32,155 nt of DNA, taken from the NCBI GenBank assembly GCA_902763655.1, contig CACWSW010000012.1:1-32155 (forward strand), given 5' to 3'. A program made the position numbers and the translations under genes. The number at the start of each line of letters is the position of its first letter. Positions within the stretch are counted from its first letter, which is position 1. Source of the DNA: an uncultured bacterium (GTDB lineage: Bacteria; Verrucomicrobiota; Kiritimatiellia; RFP12; UBA1067). The notes below the pieces were generated by a model. That model was not told the origin of the DNA, did not search any database, and saw nothing but the letters and a program-made list of their open reading frames with translations. Below, piece after piece: positions 299 to 22,738 of the stretch.

Positions 299-1810
299 TC
301 AGTTGCTCCACCACGCCGGCGGAATCTGGTTGTTGAGGTGGCCGGTGTCGAGGTAGTCCGTCACCTTCATGTCGTGCCCCACGAGGCGGAGCGAACGCTG
401 GAACGACACGCCGTGCGACACGGGCGAACCCCACGCGGCGTACCCGGCGCCCATGTACATCTTCTGCCAGTCCTTGCCGTACAGGTGGTGCCAGGTCGTC
501 GCGATGAAGCCGAACCCGCCGATCTTCACGATGTGGTCGGCCATCGGCTTCATCGACGTGTCGTTCATCCACGGACAGCCGGCCACGGCGAATCCCCGTT
601 CCTTGAAATACGTCATCGTGGGCCAGGTGCAGCGGACGCCGCCCTTCGCCGTGTGGTCGCCGTACTGCCAGTCGCAAATCACGATGTCCTTCGGCAGGCG
701 GTCGAGGATGGACGCCGCCTCGGCGTCGCCGCACACGGTAAAGCCCTTCCAGTGGGGATCCTTCTTGTCGAGCAGCATGTCATGCCACATCATCGCGCGC
801 GCGCCGCGCGACCTCACGAACTCCGCAAGGCCCGTGATGTGCCGCAGCACCAGCTCGCTGTTCGGCGTCTTGACGCAGTCGGGACAGGTCTGCCGGTCTG
901 CCTCGTCGCAGCCGATGTGGAAGTAGGGCGGATTGCCGAAGTTCTCGTGCATCTCCGCGATCAGCTCGCGCAGGACGCGCTGCGTCTCGGGATTTGAGAG
1001 GCACCAGTTCCACCCGCTGCTCCATCCGTCCGGCTCGAAGAGCGGCTCGTACTCGGGGTGGAGGTCGAGCGCGCTGTGCTTGAGCGAACGTCCGCGCGCG
1101 GACGTGGCGTGCCCGTAGCAGTTGATCTGCGGGATGAGCGTGATGCCGAGATCGCGTCCGACCGCCACGAGACGGCTCACCTCCGCCTTCGTCATGTTCG
1201 CCTGCGGCCAGCACCACCACGGGTGCTTCTCGCTCTTGTACATGCCCCACGGCTCGATGATCGCGTAGTTGAACTTGAGGAGCGCAGCCAGGCGGATCGC
1301 GCGCTCGATCTGCTGCGGGCGTACCTCCGGAAACCAGCACAGGTGCACCGCGCGGAACGCGAGGTGCGGACGGTCCGAAATGGTAAGCGCAGGAATGATC
1401 CATCCCTCGGTCTTGAACGTGCCGCGCTTCGCGATCGCAAGCTGCCGCAGCGTGTACGCCGCCCACCGCACGCCCGCGAGCGTGCGCGCCGCGATCTTCG
1501 CGCCGTCCGCTCCCGTTTCCGCCGCGTACGCTTCGTCCCCGGAAGGGACGCGCTCCTGCGCGTCCGCGGTCGCGCGGTCGCGCGCCCCTCCCGCCGCCAC
1601 CACCTTCGGCGCGTACGCGCCGTACCACTCCGCGAAATGCGACTCGAGCCATTTGACGGCGGCAGGGTCCGGACACTCCACCGTGACCGTCGTCGTATTG
1701 TCGAACGGCACGTAGTTCTTCTTGTCCATCTTGAACGTCTGGTAGGGCGCGGCCGTAACCGCAAGACACGCCGCCAGAACGGCGCAGCAGATGATTTTGA
1801 CCTTCAGCAT
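299..1810 (-). CDS. Secreted GH20-type beta-N-acetylhexosaminidase
   Basis: This 503-residue protein should remove terminal beta-linked GlcNAc or GalNAc from glycans outside the cytoplasm. Residues 1-21 form a signal peptide (MLKVKIICCAVLAACLAVTA). Residues 23-140 resemble the small GH20b-type domain. From about 145 the catalytic barrel follows, with HIGCDE at 298-303; Asp302-Glu303 is the expected catalytic pair of substrate-assisted GH20 enzymes. GHAT near 234 and the Trp-rich segment near 198-201 also fit. The start is well supported: AAGGAGG lies 7 nt upstream and overlaps the stop codon of the preceding GH89-like gene, so the two are probably translationally linked. Residues 82-90 (ADAQERVPS) come from an inserted hairpin repeat in the small domain and have no counterpart expected in the family. 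Exact linkage specificity cannot be told from the sequence. Confidence 0.82.
   Translation of the reverse strand: MLKVKIICCAVLAACLAVTAAPYQTFKMDKKNYVPFDNTTTVTVECPDPAAVKWLESHFAEWYGAYAPKVVAAGGARDRATADAQERVPSGDEAYAAETGADGAKIAARTLAGVRWAAYTLRQLAIAKRGTFKTEGWIIPALTISDRPHLAFRAVHLCWFPEVRPQQIERAIRLAALLKFNYAIIEPWGMYKSEKHPWWCWPQANMTKAEVSRLVAVGRDLGITLIPQINCYGHATSARGRSLKHSALDLHPEYEPLFEPDGWSSGWNWCLSNPETQRVLRELIAEMHENFGNPPYFHIGCDEADRQTCPDCVKTPNSELVLRHITGLAEFVRSRGARAMMWHDMLLDKKDPHWKGFTVCGDAEAASILDRLPKDIVICDWQYGDHTAKGGVRCTWPTMTYFKERGFAVAGCPWMNDTSMKPMADHIVKIGGFGFIATTWHHLYGKDWQKMYMGAGYAAWGSPVSHGVSFQRSLRLVGHDMKVTDYLDTGHLNNQIPPAWWSN
1544..1567 (+). repeat. Interspersed hairpin repeat, family A, in frame inside the GH20 gene
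   Basis: The core at 1546-1565 is a perfect inverted repeat, GGACGCGC - TCCT - GCGCGTCC (8-bp stem, 4-nt loop). The same 24 bases occur at 9453-9476 inside an unrelated gene. On the coding strand it reads as DAQERVP in both genes. Confidence 0.85.
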
Positions 1811-1824: not shown

Positions 1825-4096
1825 AGCGCAGCGAAACGATCTTTTCCGCACAGCGGGCAAGTTCGCCCATCACGCGGCGCCAGTTCTCCGGCGTACGCGG
1901 AAGCGTGGGACGCATCTCGGCGAGCGGACGGTGCAGGCTGCGCTCGCGGTAGCGGTCCGGGAAGAGCGTCGGCAGCGGCGACTTGTCGCCGGCGGCGGCG
2001 TGCTCGGCGAGCTGCGCGGCGAGGTCCGCCATCGCTGGCGCGGCCCACCAGCGCGCGACTTCGTACTGGTGCGAACGGCAGTAGCCGCATGACGCGTTGT
2101 CGTAGAGCACGTGCTCGAAGTCCGGGTTGCGGATCTTCTCGACGGCATCGAGGCGCAGATAGGATTCGTAGAGCGAGTAGTCCGTGTGGAGCGCGAGGAG
2201 ATCGGCGAAGACGCGGCCGAGGGCGGAGTAGGCGGTGGCGACGGATTGGACGTCGGTGGCGGTCGCAATAAATTGCGACCCTCCCGATTTCCAACTATGG
2301 TAGGTAGAAAGGAGCTTGATGCGGGCGGCGGAGATGAGACGGTCGGCGGCCGTGCGGGCGAGGTCCACGGCGTCGCGGCGGCCGAAGTCCCCTTCCCAGT
2401 CGAGCGCGGCGAGCGCATCAAACAGACGTGGCGTGCAGGCGAGTTCGGCGGGGAACTGCTTCTTCCACGCGGCGGGGTCGTTGCGCTTCGGGCAGCCGTC
2501 CACGGCGTCCGTGATGCATCCGCCGCCCCAGCCGAGCAGGCGGGAAAGCGGGATCACGTCCTTCCAGCAGGCCGCGAAGGCGTCCGCCTGCTTGCCGTAG
2601 CGGTCGCGGCAGAACTCCGCGAGGAGCGCATCGACGTCCATCTTGTCCGCGCGCCAGGCGTTGGCCGTGAAGTAGCGGAGCAGGAGAATGTCGGTGTGCG
2701 AGGACTCCGGCCAGAAGATGTACCCCTTGCAGAACGGGTCGTTCTGGATCGCGCGCTGGCGCTCGAGGATGAGCGGATAGTTCGCGCGGACGTCGAGCGC
2801 CTTCTCGTAGGCGATGAAGAGACCGAACGTGTAGGGGAACTTGCCGACCACGTCCCAGCGCGTGAAGTTGTTCGCGCCCTTGATTTTGTTGCCGAGCAGG
2901 TCGTTGCTCACGGCGTCCACCTCGTAGTCCCACACGATGGTGGACTTCGGGTCGAGCTCCTTGAGAAGCGCGGAGACCTCTTCCGGATGCCAGGTGAGGT
3001 AGAAATCCCAGCCGGCGAGGAGAACGCGGCTGTCGGGGTAGTGGGATTTCGCCTTTGCGATGAGGCGCTTCAGCACATCGATCTTCAGCTGGAGGTTCGC
3101 CGCGCGGTCCTTGTAGCAGAGGCGCTCGCCGAGTCCGATCGTGTGGAGGAGGTCGGGCTTGCCGTAGGCGGCGATCGAGGCCTCGGTGAGCTTCCAGTAG
3201 GCGTCGAGCCACTTGTCCTTGCGCACGTCCCACACGCGGTCGGTGGGATGTCCGTAGCATCCGCCCTCCTGCGGGAGGAAGTCAGGCTTCACCGTATCAA
3301 GGAACTGGTACGGCGTGCGGGAGTACCAGTGGCTCATCGTGCCGAAGTCCTCGGGCACCATCAGGCCGCGGTCGAAGGCGTAGTCGAGCACCGACTTGCG
3401 CAGCAGGCCGCGGAACTGGAGCGACCAGAAGAGCGAGCGGTTGTTGTAGCCGGGCATCGCCTCGGGGAGCGGCTTCGCGGGGTCGGGGTAGTCCACCACG
3501 TCGGGATACGCCTTCTGGAACGCGTCGTCCATGCCGATGCGCGGCATGATGAGGTTGAGGCGGCGCTTGACGCACCAGTCGATCTCCTTCTTCCAGTCCT
3601 CAAGCCCCCAGTGCTCGGCCTGGAAACGCGTAAGACCGCGGTGCGCGAAGTAGCGGAGGCCGCGGAACTCGAAGGACGAGCGCTCGTCCACGTCGAGCCC
3701 CGTAATGTCGGGCGCGGCGCCCTTCGGCACCACGTCGCCGTCCCAGAACCAGCGGCAGCCGCCGCGCCGCTCGAGAAAGTCGTAGACGGCGTAGAGCGCG
3801 CAGCGCCCGTTGACGACAGCGAGCTCGAGCCCATTCGCATCCGACTTCATCCGGTACGCGTCAAGGCCGTCCTTCACCGGCGGCAACGCCACGAAGCGGA
3901 TCGCCTTCGCCTCCGTCGCCGCCGGAACGATCGCCAGCTTCTCGCCGCAGATTTCCTGCCAGTAGCGCGCCAGCTCCTGCGCGGCGATCCGGTGCGCCTT
4001 CTCGCCGCACGCGGGCGGCAGCACGATTTGCATGGCCTGAATCCTTTCGACGAAGAAAAGACTCGCGAAAAGGGCTAAGAGCATTTTACTTTTCAT
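1823..4096 (-). CDS. Secreted GH89-like glycosidase (alpha-N-acetylglucosaminidase type)
   Basis: This 757-residue protein probably cleaves alpha-linked N-acetylglucosamine. The chosen start is ATG 4096: AAGGA lies just upstream, it is 1 nt from the preceding stop, and it gives a signal peptide (MKSKMLLALFASLFFVERIQ). Residues 22-135 form an N-terminal domain with ALYAVYDFLERRGGCRWF, a pattern shared by GH67/GH89/DUF4838-type proteins. Residues 145-480 look like the barrel: HWGLEDWKKEIDW near 162-174, GLGE at 321-324 as a possible catalytic Glu, and LLAGWDF near 359-365. The C-terminal part is helical, as in NAGLU. The peptide GGSQFIAT (605-612) is encoded by an inserted palindromic repeat. 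An alternative start at 4183 lacks a signal sequence at its N-terminus. The family call rests on overall pattern, and GH67- or DUF4838-like enzymes remain possible. Confidence 0.6.
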   Translation of the reverse strand: MKSKMLLALFASLFFVERIQAMQIVLPPACGEKAHRIAAQELARYWQEICGEKLAIVPAATEAKAIRFVALPPVKDGLDAYRMKSDANGLELAVVNGRCALYAVYDFLERRGGCRWFWDGDVVPKGAAPDITGLDVDERSSFEFRGLRYFAHRGLTRFQAEHWGLEDWKKEIDWCVKRRLNLIMPRIGMDDAFQKAYPDVVDYPDPAKPLPEAMPGYNNRSLFWSLQFRGLLRKSVLDYAFDRGLMVPEDFGTMSHWYSRTPYQFLDTVKPDFLPQEGGCYGHPTDRVWDVRKDKWLDAYWKLTEASIAAYGKPDLLHTIGLGERLCYKDRAANLQLKIDVLKRLIAKAKSHYPDSRVLLAGWDFYLTWHPEEVSALLKELDPKSTIVWDYEVDAVSNDLLGNKIKGANNFTRWDVVGKFPYTFGLFIAYEKALDVRANYPLILERQRAIQNDPFCKGYIFWPESSHTDILLLRYFTANAWRADKMDVDALLAEFCRDRYGKQADAFAACWKDVIPLSRLLGWGGGCITDAVDGCPKRNDPAAWKKQFPAELACTPRLFDALAALDWEGDFGRRDAVDLARTAADRLISAARIKLLSTYHSWKSGGSQFIATATDVQSVATAYSALGRVFADLLALHTDYSLYESYLRLDAVEKIRNPDFEHVLYDNASCGYCRSHQYEVARWWAAPAMADLAAQLAEHAAAGDKSPLPTLFPDRYRERSLHRPLAEMRPTLPRTPENWRRVMGELARCAEKIVSLR
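2260..2286 (+). repeat. Interspersed hairpin repeat, family B, in frame inside the GH89-like gene
   Basis: The sequence is a 9-bp perfect inverted repeat, GGTCGCAAT - AA - ATTGCGACC, followed by CTCCCG. All 27 bases recur exactly at 5899-5925 in the MFS transporter gene. In both genes the coding strand is read in the same frame, giving GGSQFIAT. Confidence 0.9.
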
Positions 4097-4097
4097 A

Positions 4098-5219
4098 TCA
4101 GTTCCTTGTATTTCCAAAATGCGTGAAATGCACGAGAACCGCACCTTTGGACACGAGGACGTACTCCCCGTTACGTTTGGCATAATGCGGTTCGCTGTAC
4201 TCGATCGTCACTTGAATATCGCCGATCCTGCCTTGGCACACGAAGAACCGGTTGCTGCCGCCGAGATCCGGGTCGTCGCCCGGAACCGCAACGCCATGAT
4301 TCCTCCGCGCAAACATTTTTCTTAAATAATCGGAGGTGCCCGGAACCTTCACGCCGGCTTCTGTCTCGATTCGTTTCAGCACGGCCGTCGCCGCGGTCTT
4401 GAGTTCCTCATTGGAGACATCTCCGTCAAACACCCGGCGCAACTTTGCCTCAAACAGCCGGCTTGGACGTCCTGGCATGCCCGTGAAAAGCAACTGGCGC
4501 TCGCTCAATCCCTCCACAGGCTTCGCCAGCTTGACCCATGAGTGTGGCAAAGGACGTCTTTCGTCGGGTTGCACGCAATTAAAATCCACGTCAAACAGGC
4601 GCTTCAACGCCGAACTAAGCCCTTGGCTCTGCGTTGCGCGGAAAGGTTCGTCGCGTCGTTCCGCCTCGCGGGAAATCACATTGAGATGCAAGTCGGTCAC
4701 AAGCGGCCCGTTCTTTTTTCGAATTGCGGAACTGACCATTATCATGACGCGCACGCCATTCGTCGTGTTCCCGATCAACCACTGGGACTTGATGTCTTTC
4801 GGCGTCTGTAGAGTATCCTTGAACTTGACGTCGAAGTCCCGTTCCAGCCGTTCTCTAAGGGATTTGGCACGCTGCGTGTATTCGTCAAAACGGTCTCCCT
4901 GGACGTGCGCGCTCGCAGAAACTGAAGCGATCCGCTTGGTCTCCGTCAGCTGGAGTTCGACTGTCTCGAAGCCGAACCATTCGTTTGTCACAACCGCGAC
5001 AAAAGGCCTGTTTCCTGTGGGATAACCGGGCGTAAAGGCCCGAAGCTGCGTGCACGACCCGTTCCAAACATCCCCCCACTTGAGATTGTTCGGCAGAGGA
5101 ATGTCTTTTGCCCACGCGGCAACGGCAGAGATCGTCAGAAGGACGATTCCCCACCTTCTGAAAGAATGCGTCGATGTGTTCGCCATCGAGGCTTGTCTTT
5201 TCTGCCGTTGATTTAACAT
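4098..5219 (-). CDS. Secreted or membrane-anchored protein of unknown function
   Basis: I do not recognise this 373-residue protein. It has a polar N-terminus followed by a hydrophobic segment (GIVLLTISAVAAWA, about residues 24-37) that would act as a signal sequence or anchor. The rest is soluble, with two segments that look like a loose internal repeat: both contain a short block near F-x-V-x-F followed by a basic stretch (about residues 95-130 and 205-240). The start at 5219 has AAGGGA 6 nt upstream and overlaps the MFS stop by 7 nt; Met12 (5186) is a weaker alternative. It lies between the permease and the GH89-like gene and ends 1 nt before the latter, so it is surely co-transcribed. By eye its base composition is less GC-rich than its neighbours, which may indicate separate acquisition. 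Confidence 0.75.
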   Translation of the reverse strand: MLNQRQKRQASMANTSTHSFRRWGIVLLTISAVAAWAKDIPLPNNLKWGDVWNGSCTQLRAFTPGYPTGNRPFVAVVTNEWFGFETVELQLTETKRIASVSASAHVQGDRFDEYTQRAKSLRERLERDFDVKFKDTLQTPKDIKSQWLIGNTTNGVRVMIMVSSAIRKKNGPLVTDLHLNVISREAERRDEPFRATQSQGLSSALKRLFDVDFNCVQPDERRPLPHSWVKLAKPVEGLSERQLLFTGMPGRPSRLFEAKLRRVFDGDVSNEELKTAATAVLKRIETEAGVKVPGTSDYLRKMFARRNHGVAVPGDDPDLGGSNRFFVCQGRIGDIQVTIEYSEPHYAKRNGEYVLVSKGAVLVHFTHFGNTRN

Positions 5220-6583
5220 GCCGGTCCCTTCTTCTTTGACTCAAACAGTCTCTCCAGCTCGTCCAGCGACTTGCCTTTCGTCTCGGGGATGAAGCAGGCC
5301 GTGACGAAGTAGAGGACGCCGTTCGCGGCGAAGAAGAAGAACATCGACGACCAGCCCCAGGCCTCGACCCACGGACGGAACGTGGAGGCGAGCCCGCACG
5401 CGGCGAGCTGGTTCAGGAAGAGCGCGATCGCCATGCCGTTCGCGCGGATACGCGAGGGCATGAGCTCGGAGAGGACGAGCCACACGCAGATGCCGGGCCC
5501 GAGCGCATAGAACACCTGCATGAAGAAGAACGCGAAGAGCGTGAGCAGCCCCGTAAAGTTGTTCGCCTGCACGCCGAAGCGCTCGATCGCGAGAAACACG
5601 CTGCCGATGGCCGCAAGCCCGAGCGTCATGCCGCCCGTGCCCACCTTCAGGAGCCACGTGCGCCCCTTCCTGTCGATGAGCGCGGCGGCGACGAGCGTCA
5701 CGAGCATGTTCGTGAGCTTCACCGCGAGCTGTCCCCAGTTGGCGAAGATACCGTCGAAGCCCGCCTGGTGCAGGATCGACACGAGATAGCTCGTGAACGA
5801 GCTCATGCCCGTCGTCTTGTTGAAGGTCAGCACGAGGCACGCGAGCAGGAAAGGGATGACGTAGCGGCGCCGGAGGAGGGATTGCGTTCCTCCCGTTTCG
5901 GTCGCAATAAATTGCGACCCTCCCGTACTGGGACAACGGGCATCTTGCCCGTTGCACTGGGACAACGGGCGTCTCGCCCGTTGCAGCCACACCGGACTCT
6001 CCGGCAACCGCAGGCTCCCGAAGAACAGCACCGCCACGGGCGCCATCGTCCACCAGAAGTTGGCGCGCCAGGCGGCGGCCATGCCAGCCGCATTGATGTC
6101 CGACGCGTCCGACGCGCCGTAGTACGTCGCGACGAGGCACCCTGCGCCGGCGGCGATCACTAGACCGAAGCCGAGGAAGAACTGGAACACGCCGGTGCCG
6201 CGTCCGCGGATCGCGGACGGGAGCGTCTCGGTGAGGTACATCGGCATGACCACGGCCATGTAGCCGGCGCTCATGCCCTGGAGGATTCGGCCCGCGAACA
6301 GGACAGGGAAGCAGTCGAGCGCGAGGCACACCACGGGAATCGCCAGGAGGAACATCGCCGACGCCGCCACGATCATCTTCTTGCGGCCCAGCCAGTCGCA
6401 CAGCACGCCTGCGGTGAGAGACGAGATCAGGCCGCCAAGCATCACCGCGCCCACCACGAGGCTGACGCGCGTGCCGGAGTAGATGCCGAGAGCCATCAGG
6501 TACGGCTCGGCCGCGGCGATCACGCCAAAGTCGACCCCGTACAGCAGCCCGCCCAGACCGGCGATTATGATGATGAGCTTCAC
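5213..6583 (-). CDS. Sugar-porter-family MFS transporter
   Basis: This 456-residue inner-membrane permease probably imports a sugar released by the neighbouring glycosidases. The family is clear from GGLLYGVDFGVI in TM1 (11-22), DWLGRKK (63-69), PMYLTETLPSAIRGRG (114-129), PESPVWL (194-200) and PETKGKSLDELE near the C-terminus. About 12 hydrophobic segments are visible. The start is GTG at 6583, needed to keep TM1 complete, with only a weak ribosome-binding site and a 10-nt gap to the upstream gene. Residues 201-235, in the central cytoplasmic loop between TM6 and TM7, are a composite of several inserted repeats (QRARRPLSQCNG..., GGSQFIAT, GGTQSLL). The insert is in frame and at the loop most tolerant of length change, so the protein may still work. 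The substrate cannot be read from the sequence. Confidence 0.88.
   Translation of the reverse strand: MKLIIIIAGLGGLLYGVDFGVIAAAEPYLMALGIYSGTRVSLVVGAVMLGGLISSLTAGVLCDWLGRKKMIVAASAMFLLAIPVVCLALDCFPVLFAGRILQGMSAGYMAVVMPMYLTETLPSAIRGRGTGVFQFFLGFGLVIAAGAGCLVATYYGASDASDINAAGMAAAWRANFWWTMAPVAVLFFGSLRLPESPVWLQRARRPLSQCNGQDARCPSTGGSQFIATETGGTQSLLRRRYVIPFLLACLVLTFNKTTGMSSFTSYLVSILHQAGFDGIFANWGQLAVKLTNMLVTLVAAALIDRKGRTWLLKVGTGGMTLGLAAIGSVFLAIERFGVQANNFTGLLTLFAFFFMQVFYALGPGICVWLVLSELMPSRIRANGMAIALFLNQLAACGLASTFRPWVEAWGWSSMFFFFAANGVLYFVTACFIPETKGKSLDELERLFESKKKGPAC
5875..5893 (+). repeat. Small hairpin, probable variant copy of family B, in the MFS gene
   Basis: GGAGG (5875-5879) pairs with CCTCC (5889-5893). 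On the coding strand the unit CGGGAGGAACGCAAT mirrors the start of the adjacent family B copy, CGGGAGGGTCGCAAT, differing at two bases. It looks like a diverged neighbour copy. Confidence 0.5.
5899..5925 (+). repeat. Interspersed hairpin repeat, family B, second copy, in the MFS gene
   Basis: All 27 bases are identical to 2260-2286. The stem is GGTCGCAAT/ATTGCGACC. It encodes GGSQFIAT in the TM6-TM7 loop of the transporter. It is flanked on one side by a variant half-copy and on the other by two tandem family C units. Confidence 0.9.
5927..5984 (+). repeat. Two tandem 29-nt hairpin units, family C, in the MFS gene
   Basis: The units 5927-5955 and 5956-5984 are identical except for two bases in the loop. 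Each begins ACTGGGA and then forms CAACGGGC - loop - GCCCGTTG, an 8-bp stem with loop ATCTT in the first and GTCTC in the second. Both are read through in frame by the transporter gene. Confidence 0.88.
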
Positions 6584-6593
6584 GGGATGGATC

Positions 6594-8306
6594 TTACCTG
6601 GTGCCGCACCAGACGGGGCGGATCACCTCGATGCGGTCGGAGAGGACGAAGTCGACGCCGAGGGCGAGAAGCTCCTTCGCCTTTTCCGGCTTGTCGCACT
6701 TGAAGTATGAGACCTTCACCCCGGCGGCGTGCATCATCTCCACGTCCGCGCGCGAGCAGGGGTAGAGCAGCTGGAGGAACTGGCACTTGTTCTCGACCGT
6801 CTGCTTCGCGTAGAGCGTGCTCTTCTCCGGCGGCCAGGGCTTGTGGTAGGCGTCGAGGCCCTTGACGGTCCGGCTCATGTTGCAGGTGAGGATGTCGGGG
6901 ACCGCCTTGCGGGCCTCGGCGATGGCGGGAAGCGACGAAGCCACGAACGCCTGGTGCAGGCGCCCTTTCGCCTTGATCTTCTGCGCCACCTCCACGGCCA
7001 CGTTCCCCGCGCTGTGGCAGTTGATCCACACGCCCTCGGTGGGCAGGCAGTCGATCGCCTCGTCGAAGGTGGGCACCTTCACGTTCGCGTCGGGATGTCC
7101 GGGCCACTTGATGGTGAGCTTGCGGATCTCGTCGAAGGTGAGGGCCGACACGGCGCCCTTTCCGTTCGTCGTGCGGTCGACCGTGCCGTCGTGCATGATC
7201 ACGAGCTCGCCCGTCTTGCAGCGCTTGACGTCGAACTCCACCATCGCGGCGCCGAGGGCGACGGCGTTGGTGAACGCCACGACGGTGTTGGCGGGCTTGC
7301 CGCCACCGTTGCCCTGGTGGGCGCAGACGCCGCGCGACGGCATGGGCGGCGCGTCGAACGTGCCGCACACGAGGCGCAGGGTGTGGCCGGTGTCCTCGAT
7401 CTCGAAGAGCTTCATGCGCTCGGCCTCGCCGGAGTTCGGCTGGTGGAGGGTGAGGAGCAGCTTGCCGTCGAACGTGCGGAAGAGCATGCCGTGTCCGCCG
7501 TTCTTCCCGTAGAGGATCTCGTCCTTCGTCCAAGGGCCGGCGATCTTTCCTGTGGTCGACTTGCGCAGCAGCACGCAATACCCGTGCCCCTTGACGAAGT
7601 TCGACCAGATCATGTAGAGGTCGCCGTTCTTTGGCGAGCGGTAGAAGAACGGCCCGTCCGTGACGTGGCTCGCGCCGGGCATCGCGTCGCGCGCGGCGAA
7701 CATCGTCTTCGGCGGCGCGGTGAACGAGGCGAAGTCCTTCGCGAGGGGCGCGTAGCACATCCGGCCGTTGTCGACCTGGCACCACTCGTGGCAGAACACC
7801 ATGTAGGGCTGGCCGTCCTCGACGTAGAGCGTGCCGTCGAGCGTCATCCACTCCTTGGGCGGGATCGGCCCCATCTTCACCGGCTTGAACGGCCCGAGCG
7901 GACTCTCCGACTTGAACACCCACGTGCCGCGCGGCGTGAGGTGCCCCTCCTTTGCCTTCGGGTCCATCGCCTTGATCGGCGCGGATCCCTTCTTCTCCGT
8001 GAGGGTGGTGAAGAGGTAGTAGGCGCCCTCGTGCTTGTGGACCTCAGGCGCCCACACGGCCGTGACGGGCACGCCTTCGGGCACGATCATCGCGGGCATC
8101 TTCTCGCTCCAGTGCTCAAGGTCTTTGCTCGTACGGACGGATACGCCCTTGCCGCCGAACCACGGCTTGGACTCGTAGAGATAGTAGGTGCCGTTGTCCG
8201 CGAGGACGAACGGATCGCGGATGCGGAAGTCTTTCCGAAGCTCCGCGTATGCCGAAAAGGCGCATGCGCCGGCCAGGACGGCGGCAAGGGCTATCTGTGC
8301 TTTCAT
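6594..8306 (-). CDS. Secreted GH43-type glycosidase fused to a glycerophosphodiester phosphodiesterase (GDPD) domain
   Basis: This 570-residue protein has a signal peptide (1-21, ending AYA) and two catalytic-type domains. Residues 25-320 match a GH43 five-blade propeller: RDPFVL with Asp31 as likely base, WAPEVH (85-90), TLDGT with Asp157, VTDGPFFYR (215-223) and GGHGMLFRTFDG (270-281). Residues 326-566 match GDPD: HQG (330-332), PANTVVAF (338-345), the metal-binding MVEFDV with Glu357/Asp359, MHDGTVDRTTNGKG (371-384), and a late FVLSDR segment. The usual GDPD HRG and PENT are HQG and PANT here, so activity may be altered. It is the first gene of the glycan operon, with an extended -10 box 7 nt before its ATG. 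Known GH43 enzymes release arabinose, xylose or galactose; the substrate here is unknown. Confidence 0.82.
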   Translation of the reverse strand: MKAQIALAAVLAGACAFSAYAELRKDFRIRDPFVLADNGTYYLYESKPWFGGKGVSVRTSKDLEHWSEKMPAMIVPEGVPVTAVWAPEVHKHEGAYYLFTTLTEKKGSAPIKAMDPKAKEGHLTPRGTWVFKSESPLGPFKPVKMGPIPPKEWMTLDGTLYVEDGQPYMVFCHEWCQVDNGRMCYAPLAKDFASFTAPPKTMFAARDAMPGASHVTDGPFFYRSPKNGDLYMIWSNFVKGHGYCVLLRKSTTGKIAGPWTKDEILYGKNGGHGMLFRTFDGKLLLTLHQPNSGEAERMKLFEIEDTGHTLRLVCGTFDAPPMPSRGVCAHQGNGGGKPANTVVAFTNAVALGAAMVEFDVKRCKTGELVIMHDGTVDRTTNGKGAVSALTFDEIRKLTIKWPGHPDANVKVPTFDEAIDCLPTEGVWINCHSAGNVAVEVAQKIKAKGRLHQAFVASSLPAIAEARKAVPDILTCNMSRTVKGLDAYHKPWPPEKSTLYAKQTVENKCQFLQLLYPCSRADVEMMHAAGVKVSYFKCDKPEKAKELLALGVDFVLSDRIEVIRPVWCGTR

Positions 8307-8333: not shown

Positions 8334-11300
8334 CTAGCGCTTGCGGACGGTTAGCGTGCGGCAGGCGCGCGAGGAGGCGCGGCGGTTCCAGTCGCGCAGG
8401 AACTGGAAATAGTCCGCCGTGAGCTGCGTGGCCCGAGCGCGATGCGCGCGCCGGCGCACCGTCACGTGGAGCCGTCCGTCCACCACCTTGTGCGAAACGT
8501 CGTGCGTCATCCAGACGTTCGATCCGTCCGCAGGGTTCACGAGGCGCAGGTTTTCCGGCAGGTGCTCGATCTCCGTGTAGCCTTTCGGCAGCACGATCTC
8601 GTACGTGTCGATCGCCTCCGCCTTGCCCATCACGGCCAGAGGCGACTTCCGCAGGGGGCCGCCAACGGAGAACAGGTTGCCGGAGAAGTCGGGGATGGTC
8701 AGCGTCAGCATCCCGTCCTGCAGGACGGCAAAGTCGGCCACGTATGCCGAGAACGCGACGTACGCGGGATATCCCTTCGTCTCGGTGACGAGGTCGGACG
8801 TGGCGGTGGCGTTTTCGGAGAGCTTGCCGACGAGCTGCTGGAAGAAGCGGCTGCGCATCTCCGGACGCATCTCCTCGAACCTCTTGCGGATGCCGCCCAC
8901 GCCCGCGCCGTACGTGAAGTTGGTGATGTCGAAGTCCGCCGACCCGTTATCGCGCACCGTTATCCTGCACCACGAGTCGTCGCGGCTGCGCCATGGGGAG
9001 TCCAGCGGTACGTCGACGATGCCGAACGTGTCGGTGGCCGGATCGTAGAAGTCGTCGCCCTCGCGCGACGTCGTCTCGGGCGGCGTGTACTCGTTCTCGC
9101 CCGCCACCCAGAAAAGGCGTCCGCTCGCGTCGCGCGCGCGAATCACCAACGCGTCGAACGACGACGGGCGCGGCACGCGGCGGCGTTCCTCCTCGGTGAG
9201 CGTGAAGCCGTGCACCGTGTCGGCGGCGAAGACGAACGAGCAGTCGAAGCCCGCTCCCTCCAGCATCGCGAAGAGCAGGTTCATCCTGTCAGCGCCGGAG
9301 GCGTAGCCGTCCGCCAGCGCGCGGTCGGGCGTGGAGAAGGCCCGATCGAACGGCAGCTCGAAGAGGCCGGGACCCGTCACGCGCAGGTTGTGCGCGAGGT
9401 ATTGGCGGATGGCCGTGATTCTCGCCGCCGAGACGGCGGCTCTCCATGCGGGAGGGACGCGCTCCTGCGCGTCCGCCAGCTCGCGGCCCTTGCGGCGGGC
9501 GGCATCCGAGCCTCTCTCCCGCGCGTGCGCGAGCGAATTGAGGAAAGAGGAGCCTTGCCCCTTCCAGTCGGCGGCAGACACGGTGAAGGCTGGCCGCCAG
9601 TGGGAGAGCGGCGGGCGCGAGGGCTCGTCGGGCACGCGCGGCGGGCGCGTCGCCGTCCAGCGGTAGACGCCGGCCTTAGGGTCCTTGACGACTTTAAGGC
9701 CTTTAAGGTCATTAGGGTCAATGGAGGCGTTGGAGCTTTCAAGGTCGTCAAAGTTCTCGAACACCTTGAAGACATTCCGCATGGTGGGCGGCACGTGGTA
9801 CTCGTAGCTCTCCAGGCCGTAAGGCTCCTCGCCGCCAAAGGTGACGACGCCGTTGAACGCGGTCGGCGCGTTCGTGACGACCCGTGCGATCGTCGTGCGG
9901 ATCACGCTGCCCACCTCAACGCCCGGCAGGTTCACCACGAGGATCTTCGACGCGGGATAGCGTGGCGCGTTTGCCGCCCAGCCGCAGTCCATCGTGTTGA
10001 TCTCCTTCGGCGTCACGGAGAACACCTTGCCGTTCCTGTTCGACACGGTGGCGGAGACAACCTCGACCGACCGCGTGCTTGGCGCGTAGCCGAACTTCAT
10101 CTCGGCGTTCGACTTCTTGCCGCGGTACGTGAGTATCTCCTTCTCGACCGTGTTCGTCGAGACCCAGCACGTCGGCGAGGTGAAGTGCACGACCGTGCGC
10201 GAGGACACGATCTTCACGTGCGCATTGTCGTCGGCGCGGGCGGCGAATACAGGTTGCGCCCGCTCGGCGGTCTCCACCTCCTTGCGCGCGTTCCGCAACG
10301 CGTCGTAGTCCTTCACTTCGAAGTTGATGTCCGTGACCTTCATCGTGCGCGAGGCGGCAAGGACTCCGTTCGTCACCGCCACCATGCGCGCGAACATGTA
10401 GCCGGCGGCGTTGGTGACGCAGCACGAGGGCGGCAGCGACCGCACGCCGCCAAGCGCCTCCTCGCCGAGCGCTAGCGAGATCGTCTCAGCGGTGCCGGCC
10501 GTCGAGGCCAGCACGAGCGGGAAGCGGCGCGTCTCGAGCGCGGTATTCTCGTCAAGTAGCGCGTTAGCCACGCTAAGCCCCTCCGTGACAAACGGCAGCG
10601 AGAGCGTATCGCGCGTCTCGCCGCGCAGGACTGCCTCCGGGAGTCGCGCAACGGTCGTTGCGGTCAGGCGCGAGTCCGTGTCGCGAAGGTCGACGGGGAG
10701 AAGCTCGAGCGACAGCAGCTCCGCGCCCGGCGCGACGTTGCGCACGAACGACTCGAACGCGCGGCGTCTCTCGTCCGGCGTACGCTTCAGGAGCGTATGG
10801 CGGACAGCGGTGTCGTTGATGCCGTCGAAGGCGAAGCGGCTTGTCAGCAGGATGCCGCCGTCCGCCGAGAGCGTGCCGGTGGAGTCGATGCGGAGCATGT
10901 TCTCGTCCACGGGCTTAACTGGCGACGTGCGAAGCATCTCCCCCTCCGGCGTCGCAACGAGATACGACATGTCGGAAAGGTACGACGGGAGCAGATCCCG
11001 GCTTGACTCGTCCGTAGGATCCATGAGGGTGAAAGGTGAAGCTTCCACCGCCACGACGGCGTGGTTGAAGTATGGGATCGGGACGTCGGGATCCATCTTC
11101 GCGCCGGCGTGGATGAGGACGGGGTAGGCCGTGATGCCGGCGATGCGGAAGAGCGCGACCAGAAGCACGGCCTTGTCGCGGCAGACGCCGTAGCGGTTGT
11201 CGAAGGTGACGTTCACGTCGTGCGGCTCGTAGCCTGGCGCATCGTCCTCCAGCGTGAGGCCCATGTAGCGGATCTCCTGCGAGACGAACTTGAAGAGCGC

Positions 11301-12212
11301 GCGGATCTTCGCGTCGCGCGTCGCGCAGTCCTTCACGACGTCGCGCACCAGGTTCGTCATGGCGGGCGTGGTGGCGGAGAGGTGCGGCTCGCACAGCTTC
11401 CAGTACCATCGCGAGACGGATGGCCAGTCCTTCGCGGTGGACAGCCACAGCGCCTGCACGCAGCGAGAGAGCGGCGGCATGTTGGGCTCGGCGAACGCCT
11501 GCGGCACGTCGCGAGCCGTCCAGCGCAGCAGCGTGCGTCCGCTACCGAGCGGCACGTCCGCAGCGCGCGCGACGGTGTTGCTGAAGGCGTGGCGGAGGAG
11601 GGCGTGGCGGACCGGGTTCTCGGAGGGCTGGTCGACGGTGACGACGGTCGAAAGGATGGGCGCGGTGTACTCGAGGATGTTGCAGTCGGCCCACGTGCCC
11701 TTCATGCGCGGCTTGCGGGTGCGGCGCGCATAGCGCACGTGGCGGATCTCGCCCGCGGCTAGGCCAGGGATGGCGCAACTCATGCGGCGCTGGAGGGGAT
11801 CGACGATGTTCGAGCCCATGCTGGAGTTGTCCGTCGCCGTCTTGAGCGTCCGCGCGAAGTCGACCGTGCGCACCTGCCCGTTCGTCCCCACGATCTCCAC
11901 GCAGAAGATGGCGGCGTCGCCGTAGCGCGCGTTGAAGGTGACGGAGAGCGACGCGTGGGAGCGGCGCCCCTTCTCGGTGAGCACCTTGACCCACTCGTCG
12001 TCCCAGGTGCAGTCAGAGCCGTCGGGCTCGTAGGCCGTGTGGAGACGGTCGTCCAGCATCACGGAGTCGGCGTCGGGAAACCGCTCCGGTGTGGCCGCTC
12101 GGGCGGCGGCGATGACGTCTGACGGGACGGCGCGATAGGCCGAAGGCATGTCGGGGATTCCATCGGCCTGCGCAACCAGCGCGGCCAGCCAGATCAGGTG
12201 CCAGAATTTCAT
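8334..12212 (-). CDS. Large secreted protein with two DUF3857/transglutaminase-like modules, the second degenerate
   Basis: This 1292-residue protein starts with a signal peptide (about 1-18). The first module has a DUF3857-like region (about 65-250), then a transglutaminase-like domain with a complete papain-type triad: YGVCRDKA (Cys344), FNHAVVAV (His384) and LMDPTD (Asp398). A second DUF3857-like region (about 660-860) precedes a second transglutaminase-like domain (about 930-1045). Here the Cys position reads ASGADR, the His position SSFDAL and the Asp position FWVAGEN, so no triad remains. Proteins of this architecture in other phyla are periplasmic or surface-bound and of uncertain role. 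Two foreign-looking inserts sit in the second half: a KDL-type 9-nt repeat (residues about 831-847) and a hairpin repeat (about 912-932). It is transcribed from its own promoter, divergent from the acyl-CoA synthetase gene. Confidence 0.8.
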   Translation of the reverse strand: MKFWHLIWLAALVAQADGIPDMPSAYRAVPSDVIAAARAATPERFPDADSVMLDDRLHTAYEPDGSDCTWDDEWVKVLTEKGRRSHASLSVTFNARYGDAAIFCVEIVGTNGQVRTVDFARTLKTATDNSSMGSNIVDPLQRRMSCAIPGLAAGEIRHVRYARRTRKPRMKGTWADCNILEYTAPILSTVVTVDQPSENPVRHALLRHAFSNTVARAADVPLGSGRTLLRWTARDVPQAFAEPNMPPLSRCVQALWLSTAKDWPSVSRWYWKLCEPHLSATTPAMTNLVRDVVKDCATRDAKIRALFKFVSQEIRYMGLTLEDDAPGYEPHDVNVTFDNRYGVCRDKAVLLVALFRIAGITAYPVLIHAGAKMDPDVPIPYFNHAVVAVEASPFTLMDPTDESSRDLLPSYLSDMSYLVATPEGEMLRTSPVKPVDENMLRIDSTGTLSADGGILLTSRFAFDGINDTAVRHTLLKRTPDERRRAFESFVRNVAPGAELLSLELLPVDLRDTDSRLTATTVARLPEAVLRGETRDTLSLPFVTEGLSVANALLDENTALETRRFPLVLASTAGTAETISLALGEEALGGVRSLPPSCCVTNAAGYMFARMVAVTNGVLAASRTMKVTDINFEVKDYDALRNARKEVETAERAQPVFAARADDNAHVKIVSSRTVVHFTSPTCWVSTNTVEKEILTYRGKKSNAEMKFGYAPSTRSVEVVSATVSNRNGKVFSVTPKEINTMDCGWAANAPRYPASKILVVNLPGVEVGSVIRTTIARVVTNAPTAFNGVVTFGGEEPYGLESYEYHVPPTMRNVFKVFENFDDLESSNASIDPNDLKGLKVVKDPKAGVYRWTATRPPRVPDEPSRPPLSHWRPAFTVSAADWKGQGSSFLNSLAHARERGSDAARRKGRELADAQERVPPAWRAAVSAARITAIRQYLAHNLRVTGPGLFELPFDRAFSTPDRALADGYASGADRMNLLFAMLEGAGFDCSFVFAADTVHGFTLTEEERRRVPRPSSFDALVIRARDASGRLFWVAGENEYTPPETTSREGDDFYDPATDTFGIVDVPLDSPWRSRDDSWCRITVRDNGSADFDITNFTYGAGVGGIRKRFEEMRPEMRSRFFQQLVGKLSENATATSDLVTETKGYPAYVAFSAYVADFAVLQDGMLTLTIPDFSGNLFSVGGPLRKSPLAVMGKAEAIDTYEIVLPKGYTEIEHLPENLRLVNPADGSNVWMTHDVSHKVVDGRLHVTVRRRAHRARATQLTADYFQFLRDWNRRASSRACRTLTVRKR
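9424..9476 (+). repeat. Composite hairpin repeat (family A plus a GCCGCC hairpin) in the transglutaminase-like gene
   Basis: Two hairpins are adjacent. GCCGCC - GAGAC - GGCGGC spans 9424-9440. The family A core GGACGCGC - TCCT - GCGCGTCC spans 9455-9474; its 24-base unit 9453-9476 equals 1544-1567 in the GH20 gene. The coding strand reads through both as DAQERVPPAWRAAVSAAR. Confidence 0.85.
9673..9720 (-). repeat. Degenerate 9-nt tandem repeat (AAGGACCTT type) in the transglutaminase-like gene
   Basis: On the coding strand the units read AATGACCTT, AAAGGCCTT, AAAGTCGTC, AAGGACCCT, encoding NDL-KGL-KVV-KDP. The same unit type makes an eight-copy array in uvrA at 16145-16216. The two genes are unrelated, so the shared unit points to a dispersed repeat and not to a shared protein domain. 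Confidence 0.7.
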
Positions 12213-13978: not shown

Positions 13979-14744
13979 ACATGCATACCTGACTGGGCCG
14001 GTCGTGTTCGTGGCCGGGCTGCTGGCCCTGCTCGCGACGTGGCTCGTCATGGAGCCGGCGGCGCTGCACCATGCATTCGACCAGGACGGCTACTCGCCGT
14101 TCGAGCTAGCCACCATCCCCTTCTACGCCGTCCTCATCCCGCTGGTCTGGTGGAAGTGTCCGTTCACCGGCTCCCGCACGCGCCGGACGATCCTCTGCCT
14201 TGCCGTCTCGTGCGTCGCGTTCATGGCCGTGGTCAAGGAGATGGACCTTCACGTCATGGCGATGCACAACCTGTACCCCGATGTGGTCAAGGCGGACGGC
14301 AGCGTGTACGGCCTGGTGAAGCCCGACGGGCAACCGCTCACCGGCACGCCGTTCAAGATGCGCTTCCTCACGAACGGCGGCGCGCCGCTCGGCGCCAAGG
14401 CGATCGCGATCGCCTACTTCTCGCTCTTCTTCGGAGTGTTCGGCGTCACGCTCGCGTACTTCGCCAAGGACCTGATCGTCGGATTCTTCAGGAAGGTTCC
14501 GCCCGCCTGGTCGATGTGCTGCTTCGGCACCGCCGGCGTGATGGTGCAGCTCTGCGACCGCATGCCCGCCTGGATCCGCCATATCCGCCACCTCCCAAAG
14601 CCCAAGGGCAACGAGATCGACTCCATATCCTCGCTCTTCACGGCGCTAGAGGAAGGCGGCGAGATGCTGATCGCCATCTTCGCGATTCTAGCCATACTCC
14701 AGGCTCACGCCCTCTTCAACCGTCCGTCCGCACAAGCCACCTGA
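13971..14744 (+). CDS. Multipass membrane protein of unknown function
   Basis: This 257-residue protein has about five hydrophobic segments at residues 9-28, 46-61, 73-89, 143-165 and 232-249. Acidic and histidine residues sit near the membrane: VVKEMDLHVMAMH at 87-99, and ALEEGGEM (225-232) just before the last helix, an EE-x-x-E pattern seen in several poorly known integral membrane families. No enzymatic family is recognised. The ATG overlaps the end of the acyl-CoA synthetase gene by 8 nt (ATGAATAG), so the two are probably made together; a link to lipid or membrane metabolism is only inference from that. The stop lies 14 nt before uvrA. Confidence 0.75.
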   Translation: MNRHAYLTGPVVFVAGLLALLATWLVMEPAALHHAFDQDGYSPFELATIPFYAVLIPLVWWKCPFTGSRTRRTILCLAVSCVAFMAVVKEMDLHVMAMHNLYPDVVKADGSVYGLVKPDGQPLTGTPFKMRFLTNGGAPLGAKAIAIAYFSLFFGVFGVTLAYFAKDLIVGFFRKVPPAWSMCCFGTAGVMVQLCDRMPAWIRHIRHLPKPKGNEIDSISSLFTALEEGGEMLIAIFAILAILQAHALFNRPSAQAT

Positions 14745-14758
14745 CCACCCAACCACCT

Positions 14759-17689
14759 ATGGCGACGGACATCATCATAGAGGGCGCGAAGGTACACAAC
14801 CTGCGCAACATCGACGTACGCATCCCGCGCAACTCGCTTGCCGTCGTCACGGGCCTCTCCGGCAGCGGCAAGTCCTCCCTCGCGTTCGACACTCTCTACG
14901 CCGAAGGCCAGCGGCGCTACGTGGAGTCGCTCTCCGCATACGCGCGCCAGTTCCTCGACCAGATGCAGAAGCCCGACGTGGAGCGCATCGAGGGCCTATC
15001 CCCAGCCATCGCCATCGAGCAGCGCACCTCCGGCGGCAACCCGCGGTCGATCGTCGCCACCGTCACGGAGATCCACGACTACCTGCGCCTCCTCTACGGC
15101 TCCGTGGGCGTCGCCCACTGCCCAAAGTGCGGCAAGCCGGTTCGCCGCCAGAGCGCGGAGCAGATAGTCGAGACGATCCTGAAGTTTCCCGGCGGCACGA
15201 AGTTCATCATCTACGCGCCAGTCGTCAAGGGGCGCAAGGGGCGCCACGAGGAGACGCTCGCCGACATCCGCCGCGCCGGGTTCGTGCGCGTGCGCGTGGA
15301 CGGCGCCACCTACCCCATCGAAGAGGTGCCCGACCTCGACAAGAAGAAGAACCACTCCATCGACGTTGTCATCGACAGATTGGTCATTCCCAAGAGCGAA
15401 GAGGGAAGCACAACTATTCACTCTTCACTATCAACTATTAACTCGCAGTTCGTCACCCGTCTCACCGACTCGGTGGAGCTCGGGCTCAAGACCGGCCACG
15501 GGCTCATCTCGGTGGATCGGCTCGGCACCGGCGAGACCACCTACAGCGAAAAGAACGCCTGCCCCGACTGCGAGCTTTCCTTCGACGAGCTGAAGCCCCG
15601 CTCGTTCTCCTTCAACTCGCCATTCGGCGCATGCCCCACCTGCGGCGGACTGGGCTCCATCTACTTCTTCGACGAGGACCTCGTCGTGCCCGACAAGACC
15701 CTTCCGCTCCGCGAGTGCATACACCCCTGGCGGCGCGCAGGCCACATGGCGATCATGTACTACAACGAGATCCTCGCCAGGATCGCCAAGCAGTACAAGG
15801 TGAAGCTCGACACGCCGTACGAGAAGCTGCCAAAATGGTTCCGCCACAAGCTCATGCACGGCTTCGACGACGACCTCATCCTGCCCTGGCGTCGCGAGGA
15901 CAAGCCTTTCGCGGGCGTTCTAGACTCGGTGAAGCGCATGATGGAGAACGCCGAAAGCGACGAGAGGCGAGAGAAGTTCGAGGCGTACCAGAGCGACCGC
16001 CCCTGCCCCGCCTGCCACGGCTCGCGCCTCAGGCCCGAGTCCCGCGCCGCCACCGTCGCAGGAAAGACCATCGTCGAGGTCATGGCGATGCCGGTTAAGG
16101 ACTCCCTCGCCTTTTTCAAGGAGCTTCTGGACATCAGCCTTTCTAAGGACCTTAAGGATTTTAAGGACTCTAAAGACCTTAATGGCCTTAATGACTCTAA
16201 GGACCTTAAGGACCTTAATCTTGAGCCGATGAAGGACGTTTTGAAGGAGATCGTCAAGCGGCTGGGGTTCCTCAACGACGTCGGCCTCGACTACCTCACC
16301 CTCGACCGCTCCTCAAGCTCGCTGTCCGGCGGCGAGATGCAGCGCATTCGCCTCGCCTCCCAGATCGGCAGCGGCCTCGTGGGCGTCCTCTACGTCCTCG
16401 ACGAGCCGACCATAGGCCTCCATCCGCGCGACAACGAGCGCCTCATCGCCATGCTCAAGGCACTGCGCGACCGCGGCAACACTGTCGTCATCGTGGAGCA
16501 CGACGGCGAGATGATGCGCACCGCGGACTGGATCGTGGACCTCGGCCCGGGCGCCGGCCGCGAAGGCGGCCGCGTCATGTACCAGGGCGACTACAAGGGG
16601 CTTCTGAAGGCCGGCACGCTGACTTCCGATTATCTGAACGGGAAGAAGGCAATAGCCGCATCTGCAGCACCTCCAGCCACGATGGCCGAACTGTGTTCGA
16701 CCAAGAAAGGCAAGTGGCTCACCATCAGCGGGTGCACGGAGCACAACCTCAAGAACATCACCGTGCGCTTTCCGCTCGGCACGTTCACGGTCGTCACCGG
16801 CGTCTCGGGGAGCGGCAAGTCCACACTAATCGACGAGACCCTGAAGCGCGAGCTGATGCGCCGCTTCTACCACTCCAAGGCCGTGCCAGGCAAGTTCCGC
16901 AAGCTCGTTGGCGCGGAGCACATCGACAAGGTGATCGAGATCGACCAGTCGCCAATCGGACGCACCCCGCGCTCGAACCCGGCCACCTACGTAGGCTTCT
17001 TCTCCGACATCCGCGAGCTCTTCGCCAAGACCGAAGGCGCCAAGGCGCGAGGCTACACCGCCGGACGCTTCAGCTTCAACGTCAAGGGCGGCCGCTGCGA
17101 GACGTGCGGCGGAGACGGCGTGCGCAAGCTCGAGATGAGCTTCCTGCCGGACGTCTACGTCACCTGCGAGCAGTGCGGCGGCAAGCGCTTCAACAAGGAG
17201 ACGCTCGAGGTGACCTACGGCGGCAAGACGATCTCCGATGTCCTAGACATGACCGTGGCCGAGGCGTACGAGTTCTTCGCCAAGGTGCCACGCCTCGCCG
17301 CGAAGCTGAAGACGCTCGTCGACGTCGGTCTCGGCTACATCGGCCTCGGCCAGCCCGCCACCACCCTCTCCGGCGGCGAAGCCCAGCGCATCAAGCTCGC
17401 TACCGAGCTTTCGCGCCGTTCCACAGGCAAGACGCTGTACCTTCTCGACGAACCTACCACCGGCCTGCACTTCGACGACATCGCCAAGCTGATGAAGCTG
17501 CTTCTAAAGCTCCGCGAGAGCGGCAACACCGTCATCGTCATCGAGCACAACGTGGACGTGATGCGCTGCGCCGACTGGATAGTGGACCTCGGTCCGGGCG
17601 GCGGCGACGCCGGCGGCAACCTCGTGGCGGAAGGCCCGCCATCCGAAATCGCCAAGAATCCCGCCAGCCTCACCGGCCGATTCCTGTGA
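14759..17689 (+). CDS. uvrA: UvrABC system protein A (excinuclease ATPase) with two in-frame inserts
   Basis: UvrA is the damage-recognition ATPase of nucleotide excision repair. This copy has 976 residues, against about 940 in typical bacteria. The first ATP-binding site has GLSGSGKSS at 32-40, and a first zinc module has CPKCGKP at 121-127. Further cysteine pairs occur at 268-271, 292-295 and 416-419. [20 protein letters not shown] (521-540) and [11 protein letters not shown] follow, then a second Walker A (GVSGSGKST), the CETCGGDG zinc finger and a second [12 protein letters not shown] signature. Two segments do not belong to the family: residues about 212-229 ([18 protein letters not shown]) and about 460-487, a KDL repeat. 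Together they account for the extra length. All catalytic motifs remain intact. ATG 14759 has no Shine-Dalgarno; it is chosen because it matches the usual UvrA N-terminus. Confidence 0.95.
15411..15444 (+). repeat. AT-rich inserted segment in uvrA (ACTATTCACT type)
   Basis: A stretch built from variants of CAACTATTCACT, TCTTCACTATCA and ACTATTAACT stands out in an otherwise very GC-rich gene. It encodes [12 protein letters not shown] between the conserved VIDRL and RLTDSVE segments, where other UvrA proteins have only a few residues. Similar low-complexity motifs occur as dispersed repeats in other bacterial genomes. Confidence 0.7.
16145..16216 (+). repeat. Eight-copy 9-nt tandem repeat in uvrA
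   Basis: The units are AAGGACCTT, AAGGATTTT, AAGGACTCT, AAAGACCTT, AATGGCCTT, AATGACTCT, AAGGACCTT and AAGGACCTT, encoding [15 protein letters not shown] triplets. The period of 9 keeps the frame open. The site lies just before the segment leading to the LSGGE signature. Confidence 0.92.
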
Positions 17690-22574: not shown

Positions 22575-22738
22575 GACTGGTCGCTCCCATCTTCTTCCGC
22601 AGGAACAACGGGACCTCCGAACCAATGAACCCTGCTGTCCTCGTCAACGCGCAGGTTGTTGAGGACGCCGAGCATGACAGCTAGAAGCAACATCCCCGCA
22701 AGGACAACAATATTGAAATTTTTGAACTCGGCTTTCAT
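22571..22738 (-). CDS. Small single-pass membrane protein, 55 residues
   Basis: This short gene lies exactly between the giant protein gene and the MauE-thioredoxin gene. Its ATG (22738) shares one base with the giant gene's TGA (TGATG), and its own TGA overlaps the ATG of the next gene. The protein begins MKAEFKNFN, has one hydrophobic helix at about residues 10-26 (IVVLAGMLLLAVMLGVL), and ends in an acidic tail (PAEEDGSDQS). It is probably an inner-membrane protein with its N-terminus inside. No family is recognised. The exact overlaps on both sides argue that it is a real gene and not chance; it may anchor or help export one of the neighbouring products. Confidence 0.72.
   Translation of the reverse strand: MKAEFKNFNIVVLAGMLLLAVMLGVLNNLRVDEDSRVHWFGGPVVPAEEDGSDQS

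Follow-up and report, generated by a model that had tools for sequence, protein, structure and literature searches.

How does the gene of a sugar transporter come to hold a packed cluster of short repeats in the middle of its coding sequence, and what kind of repeats are they? The window, by which we mean the whole 32,155-nt stretch that was analysed, is contig 12 of a 4.5-Mb assembly in 465 contigs, and it encodes an MFS sugar porter in which an earlier note, made from the sequence alone, had described such a cluster. We take the hairpins found there, families B and C, to be two REP-like families tied to RAYT-type HUH transposases, which persist in tolerant loops and share the porter loop with other repeats that have refilled it repeatedly, a reading to which we give a probability of roughly 0.7. 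It builds on what we observed of the hairpins' structure, copy number, clustering, in-frame residence and turnover, and of RAYT neighbourhood in sister genomes.

Direct reading of the sequence confirmed the composition given in the note, namely a half copy and a full copy of family B followed by two tandem 29-nt copies of family C. The cluster occupies positions 5881-5984, the note's start at 5871 being about 10 nt too early, and where at least three repeat types had been announced we found two families, one of them also present as a fragment. The full B unit consists of the palindrome GGTCGCAATAAATTGCGACC at 5900-5919 plus its head CGGGAG, and the two C copies, spaced at 29 nt, are 93% identical to each other. 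Read in the coding direction, the order is ...PESPVWL, two C, one B, truncated B, LLRRRYVIPFL, and the minus-strand frame (456 aa) has no stop across the whole cluster, in line with the claim that the repeats are in frame. The assignment of the host to the MFS sugar porters, backed by its Pfam match (Table 1), and the placing of the repeats in the central loop also held: in the AlphaFold2 model (13 sequences, mean pLDDT 78.1) the repeats lie between the two transporter halves, with residues 206-234, at pLDDT below 50, predicted to sit between a short helix (197-204) and helix 239-258 and to join these halves. The 30 nearest porter orthologues in named records belong to MAGs titled Kiritimatiellae, Lentisphaerae, Verrucomicrobia or uncultured bacterium, and those with a sample in the title come from ruminant rumen, omasum, duodenum, colon or rectum; the window's own genome is likewise a MAG that falls among rumen or gut Kiritimatiellae.

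Table 1 Repeat units and host gene in the window, with array sites from the related genome G003 (last three lines, positions within the named sequence)
Feature	Position	Strand	Remarks
MFS sugar porter gene, host of the cluster	5213..6583	-	Pfam Sugar_tr, E 7.8e-65; orthologues in the clade
98-bp segment	5885..5982		no counterpart in the closest orthologue, which has a 116-bp heptamer array between the same borders
REP-like family C unit	5956..5984	+	head ACTGGGA, then CAACGGGC-N5-GCCCGTTG; antisense to the porter gene
REP-like family C unit	5927..5955	+	in tandem with the unit at 5956..5984
REP-like family B unit	5899..5925	-	head CGGGAG, then GGTCGCAATTTATTGCGACC; sense to the porter gene
Truncated family B unit	5881..5895	-	head CGGGAG and first arm only (GAACGCAAT); oriented as the full B unit
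Family B unit	2261..2285	-	in frame in the neighbouring NAGLU-like gene; site empty or otherwise filled in sister species
Family A unit	1564..1592	-	within the GH20-type gene 299-1810
Family A unit	9450..9478	+	within gene 8334-12212
G003 array family site, L162	near 13525		compared with L171
G003 array family site, L072	4642..4834		compared with L100
G003 array family site, L087	15587..15756		compared with L174

Both families are hairpins of 25-29 nt with a one-sided GGGA(G) head. Within 722 kb of the window's own genome the B consensus (53 copies) is CGGGAG-GGWCGCAAYTTRTTGCGWCC-G, with the head on one side only and arms that vary in pairs, and the C consensus (15 copies) is CAACGGGCgAGAcGCCCGTTG-TCCCAGT, that is, a head ACTGGGA on the opposite strand. 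The paired arm variants include GGT..ACC, GGA..TCC and GGG..CCC as well as AAT..ATT and AAC..GTT. Two further families of like build occur alongside them, A (GGGAG + GGNCGCG...CGCGNCC) and D (GGGA + GCCGCC-N5-GGCGGC). The window's own genome holds 162 copies of the B pattern GGNCGCAAN4TTGCGNCC and 21 of the exact C hairpin, against 0 for each reversed-pattern control; when up to two mismatches were allowed, C rose to 31 copies (control 3) and GGTCGCAATNNATTGCGACC gave 160 (control 0). Their distribution is patchy. Exact C is present in 17 of the 59 genomes, with up to 115 copies, and B in 18 of them, with up to 162; C including its head was found in 23 of the 161 genomes of the order and in 13 of the 16 of the window's genus, the C-richest genomes being G009 (115 copies) and G011 (92).

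Short hairpins of 20-40 bp in many dispersed copies, with arms conserved through paired changes, are features of REPs, and B (162 copies) and C (21 copies) have both of them. The GTAG (or CGTC) tetranucleotide is absent from the foot of the stem, where B has CGGGAG and C has TGGGA, and the elements are not mostly extragenic: in 53 stretches unselected for hits (1,060 kb of G000 and G003; G000 stretches chosen for hits left out, except contig 1) there are 87 A-D elements, 45 of which lie inside genes as called by our own codon-score script, 40 between genes and 2 at an edge. Since the GTAG and extragenic features are missing, B and C are not classical REPs and were filed as REP-like; in our reading they are a non-GTAG kind of REP-like element. 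By area 82% of the elements would be expected in genes, and thus intergenic DNA is favoured per base, though half of the copies are intragenic.

The porter locus itself was compared across species. The aligned flanks of the site in the window and in G003 are 93.5% identical over 645 bp and 89.5% identical over 602 bp, and what they enclose is 98 bp of B and C in the window, 116 bp of GTTTGA/TCAAAC inverted heptamers in G003. The loop measures 39 residues in the window and 23-45 in its clade, whereas orthologues outside the clade have a conserved loop of about 48-55, so that the ordinary loop was lost, with repeat DNA now in its place. The suggestion that extra length is tolerated here is not supported, the window's loop being shorter than the ordinary one. 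Neither was the loop of ordinary length and conserved sequence across the family, an outcome that the earlier note had named as fatal to its claim: 38 gap-containing columns fall in the loop versus 6 in the rest of residues 20-435 (33 proteins, the partial L055 excluded). Some loops of the clade hold inverted heptamer arrays, whose units are of many kinds, others 9-mers (TCCGGAAAA), and others no visible repeat. When the loop was left out of tree building, the window and L190 came out as sisters (95% identical over 414 columns), and on this tree repeat classes assigned by eye imply at least 14 changes of loop class over 33 proteins (again without L055), or 8 if only repeat versus plain is scored. 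Sister species carry quite different repeats in this loop, which thus acts as a place where repeat DNA lands or grows time and again; arrays of other kinds also occupy such places, hence the hot spot is more general than REPs, and since the repeats in most sister loops are non-REP, the biology of REPs alone is insufficient to account for the site.

That heptamer families are elements dispersed over whole genomes was considered and rejected: 240 kb of G003 lacked the heptamer motif of its porter loop, and of nine motifs whose copies were counted in samples from 14 genomes, B and C alone were dense (in G000 and G003). The heptamer arrays look locally made, because period 7 is the most frequent short tandem period in the samples. 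G003 nevertheless has an intergenic family of inverted heptamer arrays with TTGGTGC / GCACCAA arms and a shared core near GCGAAAGCA, at sites that in G000 are empty (130 bp against 0) or taken by other arrays (Table 1).

Turnover of this kind extends to other genes. Five sequences cover the site of the B unit in the neighbouring NAGLU-like gene (L290 lies outside it): two are empty (G004 and G014, plain at this codon), two carry B (G005 among them) and one, G006, has three tandem A units of 30 nt. B substitutes about 15-18 nt at this site and is not a pure addition. Three sites in uxaC behave likewise. The C pair that G003 holds at site 1 is matched by plain sequence (GGCGACGC or close to it) in G006, G004, G000 and G001. 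Site 3 is occupied by three C copies in G003, by plain residues in G006 and G004, and by other repeats in G011 and G014. Site 2 carries a RAYT plus C in G003 and G014, and short tandem arrays in G004 and G000. Ten of the element-bearing genes from our own gene calls were scanned, eight of which gave a Pfam match at 1e-5, one of these doubtful, the clear hosts being methionyl-tRNA synthetase, CTP synthase, GH92, GH20, melibiase, FtsX and a PYC_OADA/biotin protein. Among 24 sense copies of B, 18 share one frame, a figure inflated by duplicated clusters. Peptides such as GGSQFIAT or CNGQDARCPS in the predicted proteins of this group are translated repeats, which calls for caution in annotation, and the same codon found empty, singly occupied, tandemly occupied or replaced offers a natural test bed for how hairpins enter proteins and how proteins respond.

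In sister genomes the hairpins lie beside RAYT genes. PF01797 matches occur in 45 of the 59 genomes, so co-occurrence with B and C is weak evidence, and RAYT presence was discarded as a predictor of B and C, being too common to be informative. Around 7 of 11 RAYT loci of the genus (a subset of those detected there) the surrounding 2.2 kb contains 4 to 13 GGGA-head hairpins, the other four having 1 or 2, against a background mean of 0.23, with 1.0% of 477 windows reaching 4. On contig 98 of G003 all 12 C copies of a 19.6-kb stretch surround one RAYT, on the plus strand on one side and mostly on the minus strand on the other; the ORF of this RAYT scores 28.1 bits for Y1_Tnp (cut-off 23) and 69.1 bits for REP_Tyr_transpos (below the cut-off of 80). 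The RAYT on contig 9 of the same genome is flanked on both sides by A and D elements, with B confined to one side. The hairpin beside the RAYT differs between loci, being C on contig 98 of G003, D in G013, GGGGAAGCGACACTCTTGTCGCTTC in G010, G012 and G015, and GGGGGAAGCGGCGTCTCGCCGCTTC in G004. The window's own genome has a single RAYT (contig 278), with one A and one B about 0.6 kb beyond its ORF and no C copy within 2.5 kb. Close relatives of the C-flanked RAYT were seen only in G003 and G014, and none in the C-rich G009 and G011, where gaps in the MAGs may hide them. The proteins have the Y1_Tnp domain and the HUH motif of RAYTs, the latter visible as NHFHLL / NHVHVL: two exceed the PF01797 cut-off of 23 bits (L084, 29.8; L092, 28.1) and L106, at 22.5, falls just under it. 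The NCBIfam NF047646 equivalog cut-off of 80 bits is reached by none of three proteins (64.1, 69.1 and 42.2 bits).

The C-flanked RAYT of G003 contig 98 lies within a 722-aa frame (L092, 12501-14669), the rest of which is glucuronate isomerase (UxaC E 4.1e-71, Y1_Tnp 2.5e-6). A 768-aa frame of like UxaC and RAYT make-up is found on contig 39 of G014 (L266), a separately assembled genome, and other members of the genus, such as G006, G004, G011 and G001, have uxaC without a RAYT. Between G003 and G014 the RAYT part has a dN/dS of 0.11 at a dS of 1.11, similar to the UxaC parts (0.05 to 0.39), so the frame has long been maintained across the RAYT. The UxaC-RAYT fusion may well be made and work, and one is led to ask whether host enzymes can carry a transposase as one of their domains.

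The elements are strongly clustered, as had been proposed: 128 of 207 have a neighbour within 60 nt, compared with 8.4 on average, and never more than 18, in 500 random draws in which elements were not confined to tolerant places. The 86 close pairs comprise 48 tandem, 22 head-out and 16 head-in, and B-B pairs are head-out, the REPIN kind, in 16 of 26 cases. B beside C, for which a search elsewhere had been recommended, occurs on contig 153 of the window's own genome (C at 3259 and B at 3303 of L085). In the suggestion of a nesting hot spot the recurrence of repeats at the site, the class turnover and the clustering all stand, and an active preference for existing repeats becomes one of two options: either repeats prefer existing repeats, or they just persist and multiply at places that a protein can tolerate. 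Most simply, disordered loops would permit repeats to survive, and the survivors would then duplicate or attract others. Separately, L081 contains at 8569-9176 a row of near-identical head-out B pairs, the last two 90 nt apart (9034 and 9124), resembling an amplified array of REPINs.

Comparison with known systems, as described in the accessible portions of the cited papers, places these elements nearest to REP/RAYT (TnpA_REP), in which RAYTs are flanked by inverted REPs (Nunvar 2010, PMC2817692). Dispersed short hairpins, paired arm changes, a one-sided head, clusters or inverted pairs and copies around an HUH tyrosine transposase are common to both (PMC2817692, PMC3733652, PMC8266576), and some of the Pseudomonas REPs of Nunvar have a similar head (GTGGGAGGGGGCTTGCCCCC; PMC2817692). 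Unlike REP/RAYT as presented there, the head here is CGGGAG or TGGGA instead of GTAG or CGTC, roughly one copy in two is intragenic, the transposase scores under the NCBIfam equivalog cut-off and one RAYT lies in frame in uxaC. Intragenic REPs are known, Opitutus terrae being the richest among the GTAG types (Di Nocera 2013, PMC3733652): there and in others REPs sit in known genes as single units, dimers and groups, in Opitutus likewise in a verrucomicrobial host, and different REPs occur at about one recB site in two Xanthomonas species (PMC3733652). In contrast to those cases, turnover is traced here over 33 orthologues and in further genes, with the same sites also found empty or filled by non-REP arrays. 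The A-D elements, read in frame within coding genes, recall the Rickettsia palindromic elements (PMC3733652), from which ours differ in having an associated transposase; the likeness drawn here is one of description. The frequent head-outward pairs of family B resemble REPINs (Bertels and Rainey 2011, PMC3116915), yet in P. fluorescens gene overlap is confined to 14 of the most abundant 16-mers (1,067 occurrences), whereas here about half of the elements are intragenic and tandem pairs are commoner (22 of 86 pairs over all families are head-out). A literature search with thin coverage of subscription journals and partial access to sources returned no report of REPs in Kiritimatiellae or of an in-frame RAYT embedded in an enzyme; the site-by-site turnover and the embedded RAYT look new.

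Mobile REP-like hairpins would explain the build, the spread, the RAYT neighbourhood and the empty sites. B and C, presumably moved by a RAYT, would have spread genome-wide, in many cases forming clusters that are tandem, inverted or mixed; about half of the surviving copies are intragenic, where they are read in frame and would be retained mainly at places that can accommodate a short disordered peptide. One such place is the TM6-TM7 loop, which lost its ordinary segment in this clade and has been refilled repeatedly by different repeat families, REPs in the window and heptamer or 9-mer arrays in sister species. The hairpins might instead arise and spread with no transposase, by template switching, slippage and gene conversion like the heptamer arrays, the RAYT surroundings being merely repeat-rich. 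Tandem is indeed the commonest arrangement of close pairs, non-REP tandem arrays occupy the same sites in other species, the NAGLU site shows replacement and not just insertion, and there are C-rich genomes without a close C-type RAYT; but near-identical 26-nt C units scattered in 23 of 161 genomes, the opposed orientation around the RAYT, the asymmetric head and the clean empty uxaC sites are what mobile units would be expected to leave, and we consider this alternative unlikely. Far more improbable is that the mRNA hairpin itself is selected, for instance as a pause between the six-helix halves, each species keeping some hairpin. Loops with a fold z below -2 number 19 of 34 in the clade versus 0 of 17 in the outgroup (mononucleotide shuffles, which preserve base composition only; L234, with 8 stops in the used frame, excluded), as selection would predict; against it, inverted repeats fold well for any reason, the remaining 15 clade loops are not better folded and some are neighbours of hairpin loops in the tree (L206 at z 0.8 next to L202 at z -2.3; L203 at z -1.2 within the group of L199 at z -6.7), outgroups manage without a hairpin, and B and C lie in many unrelated genes.

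A purely permissive filter, in which repeats land anywhere, are seen only in unconstrained places and do not target earlier repeats, addresses the cause of the hot spot only and is compatible with REP-like elements. The deficit of intragenic elements relative to area, the presence of non-REP arrays in the same loop and the very low model confidence there, consistent with disorder, all suit it, whereas the 60-nt clustering, far above the random maximum, counts only against the filter acting alone; its chances seem to us a little short of even. Returning to mobile REP-like hairpins, their survival in permissive loops together with local duplication would make the hot spot. A bolder version, which we regard as possible but somewhat doubtful, is that this is a REP/RAYT system with coding sequence as its normal habitat: hairpins would be readable as peptide, the RAYT would be an in-frame UxaC domain under purifying selection, and repeats would rewrite the same disordered loops, so that loop sequence came from mobile or expanding DNA and not from point mutation.

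The window has some other features of its own. A single ORF at 6594-8306 joins a GH43 domain and a glycerophosphodiester phosphodiesterase domain, an unusual fusion. Within ORF 14150-17689, which by eye we take to be UvrA-like, in-frame 9-mer tandem repeats of the AAGGACCTT type run from 16144 to 16218 and read as 25 residues. The ORF at 22738-31998 encodes 3086 aa rich in internal repeats and is probably a surface protein.
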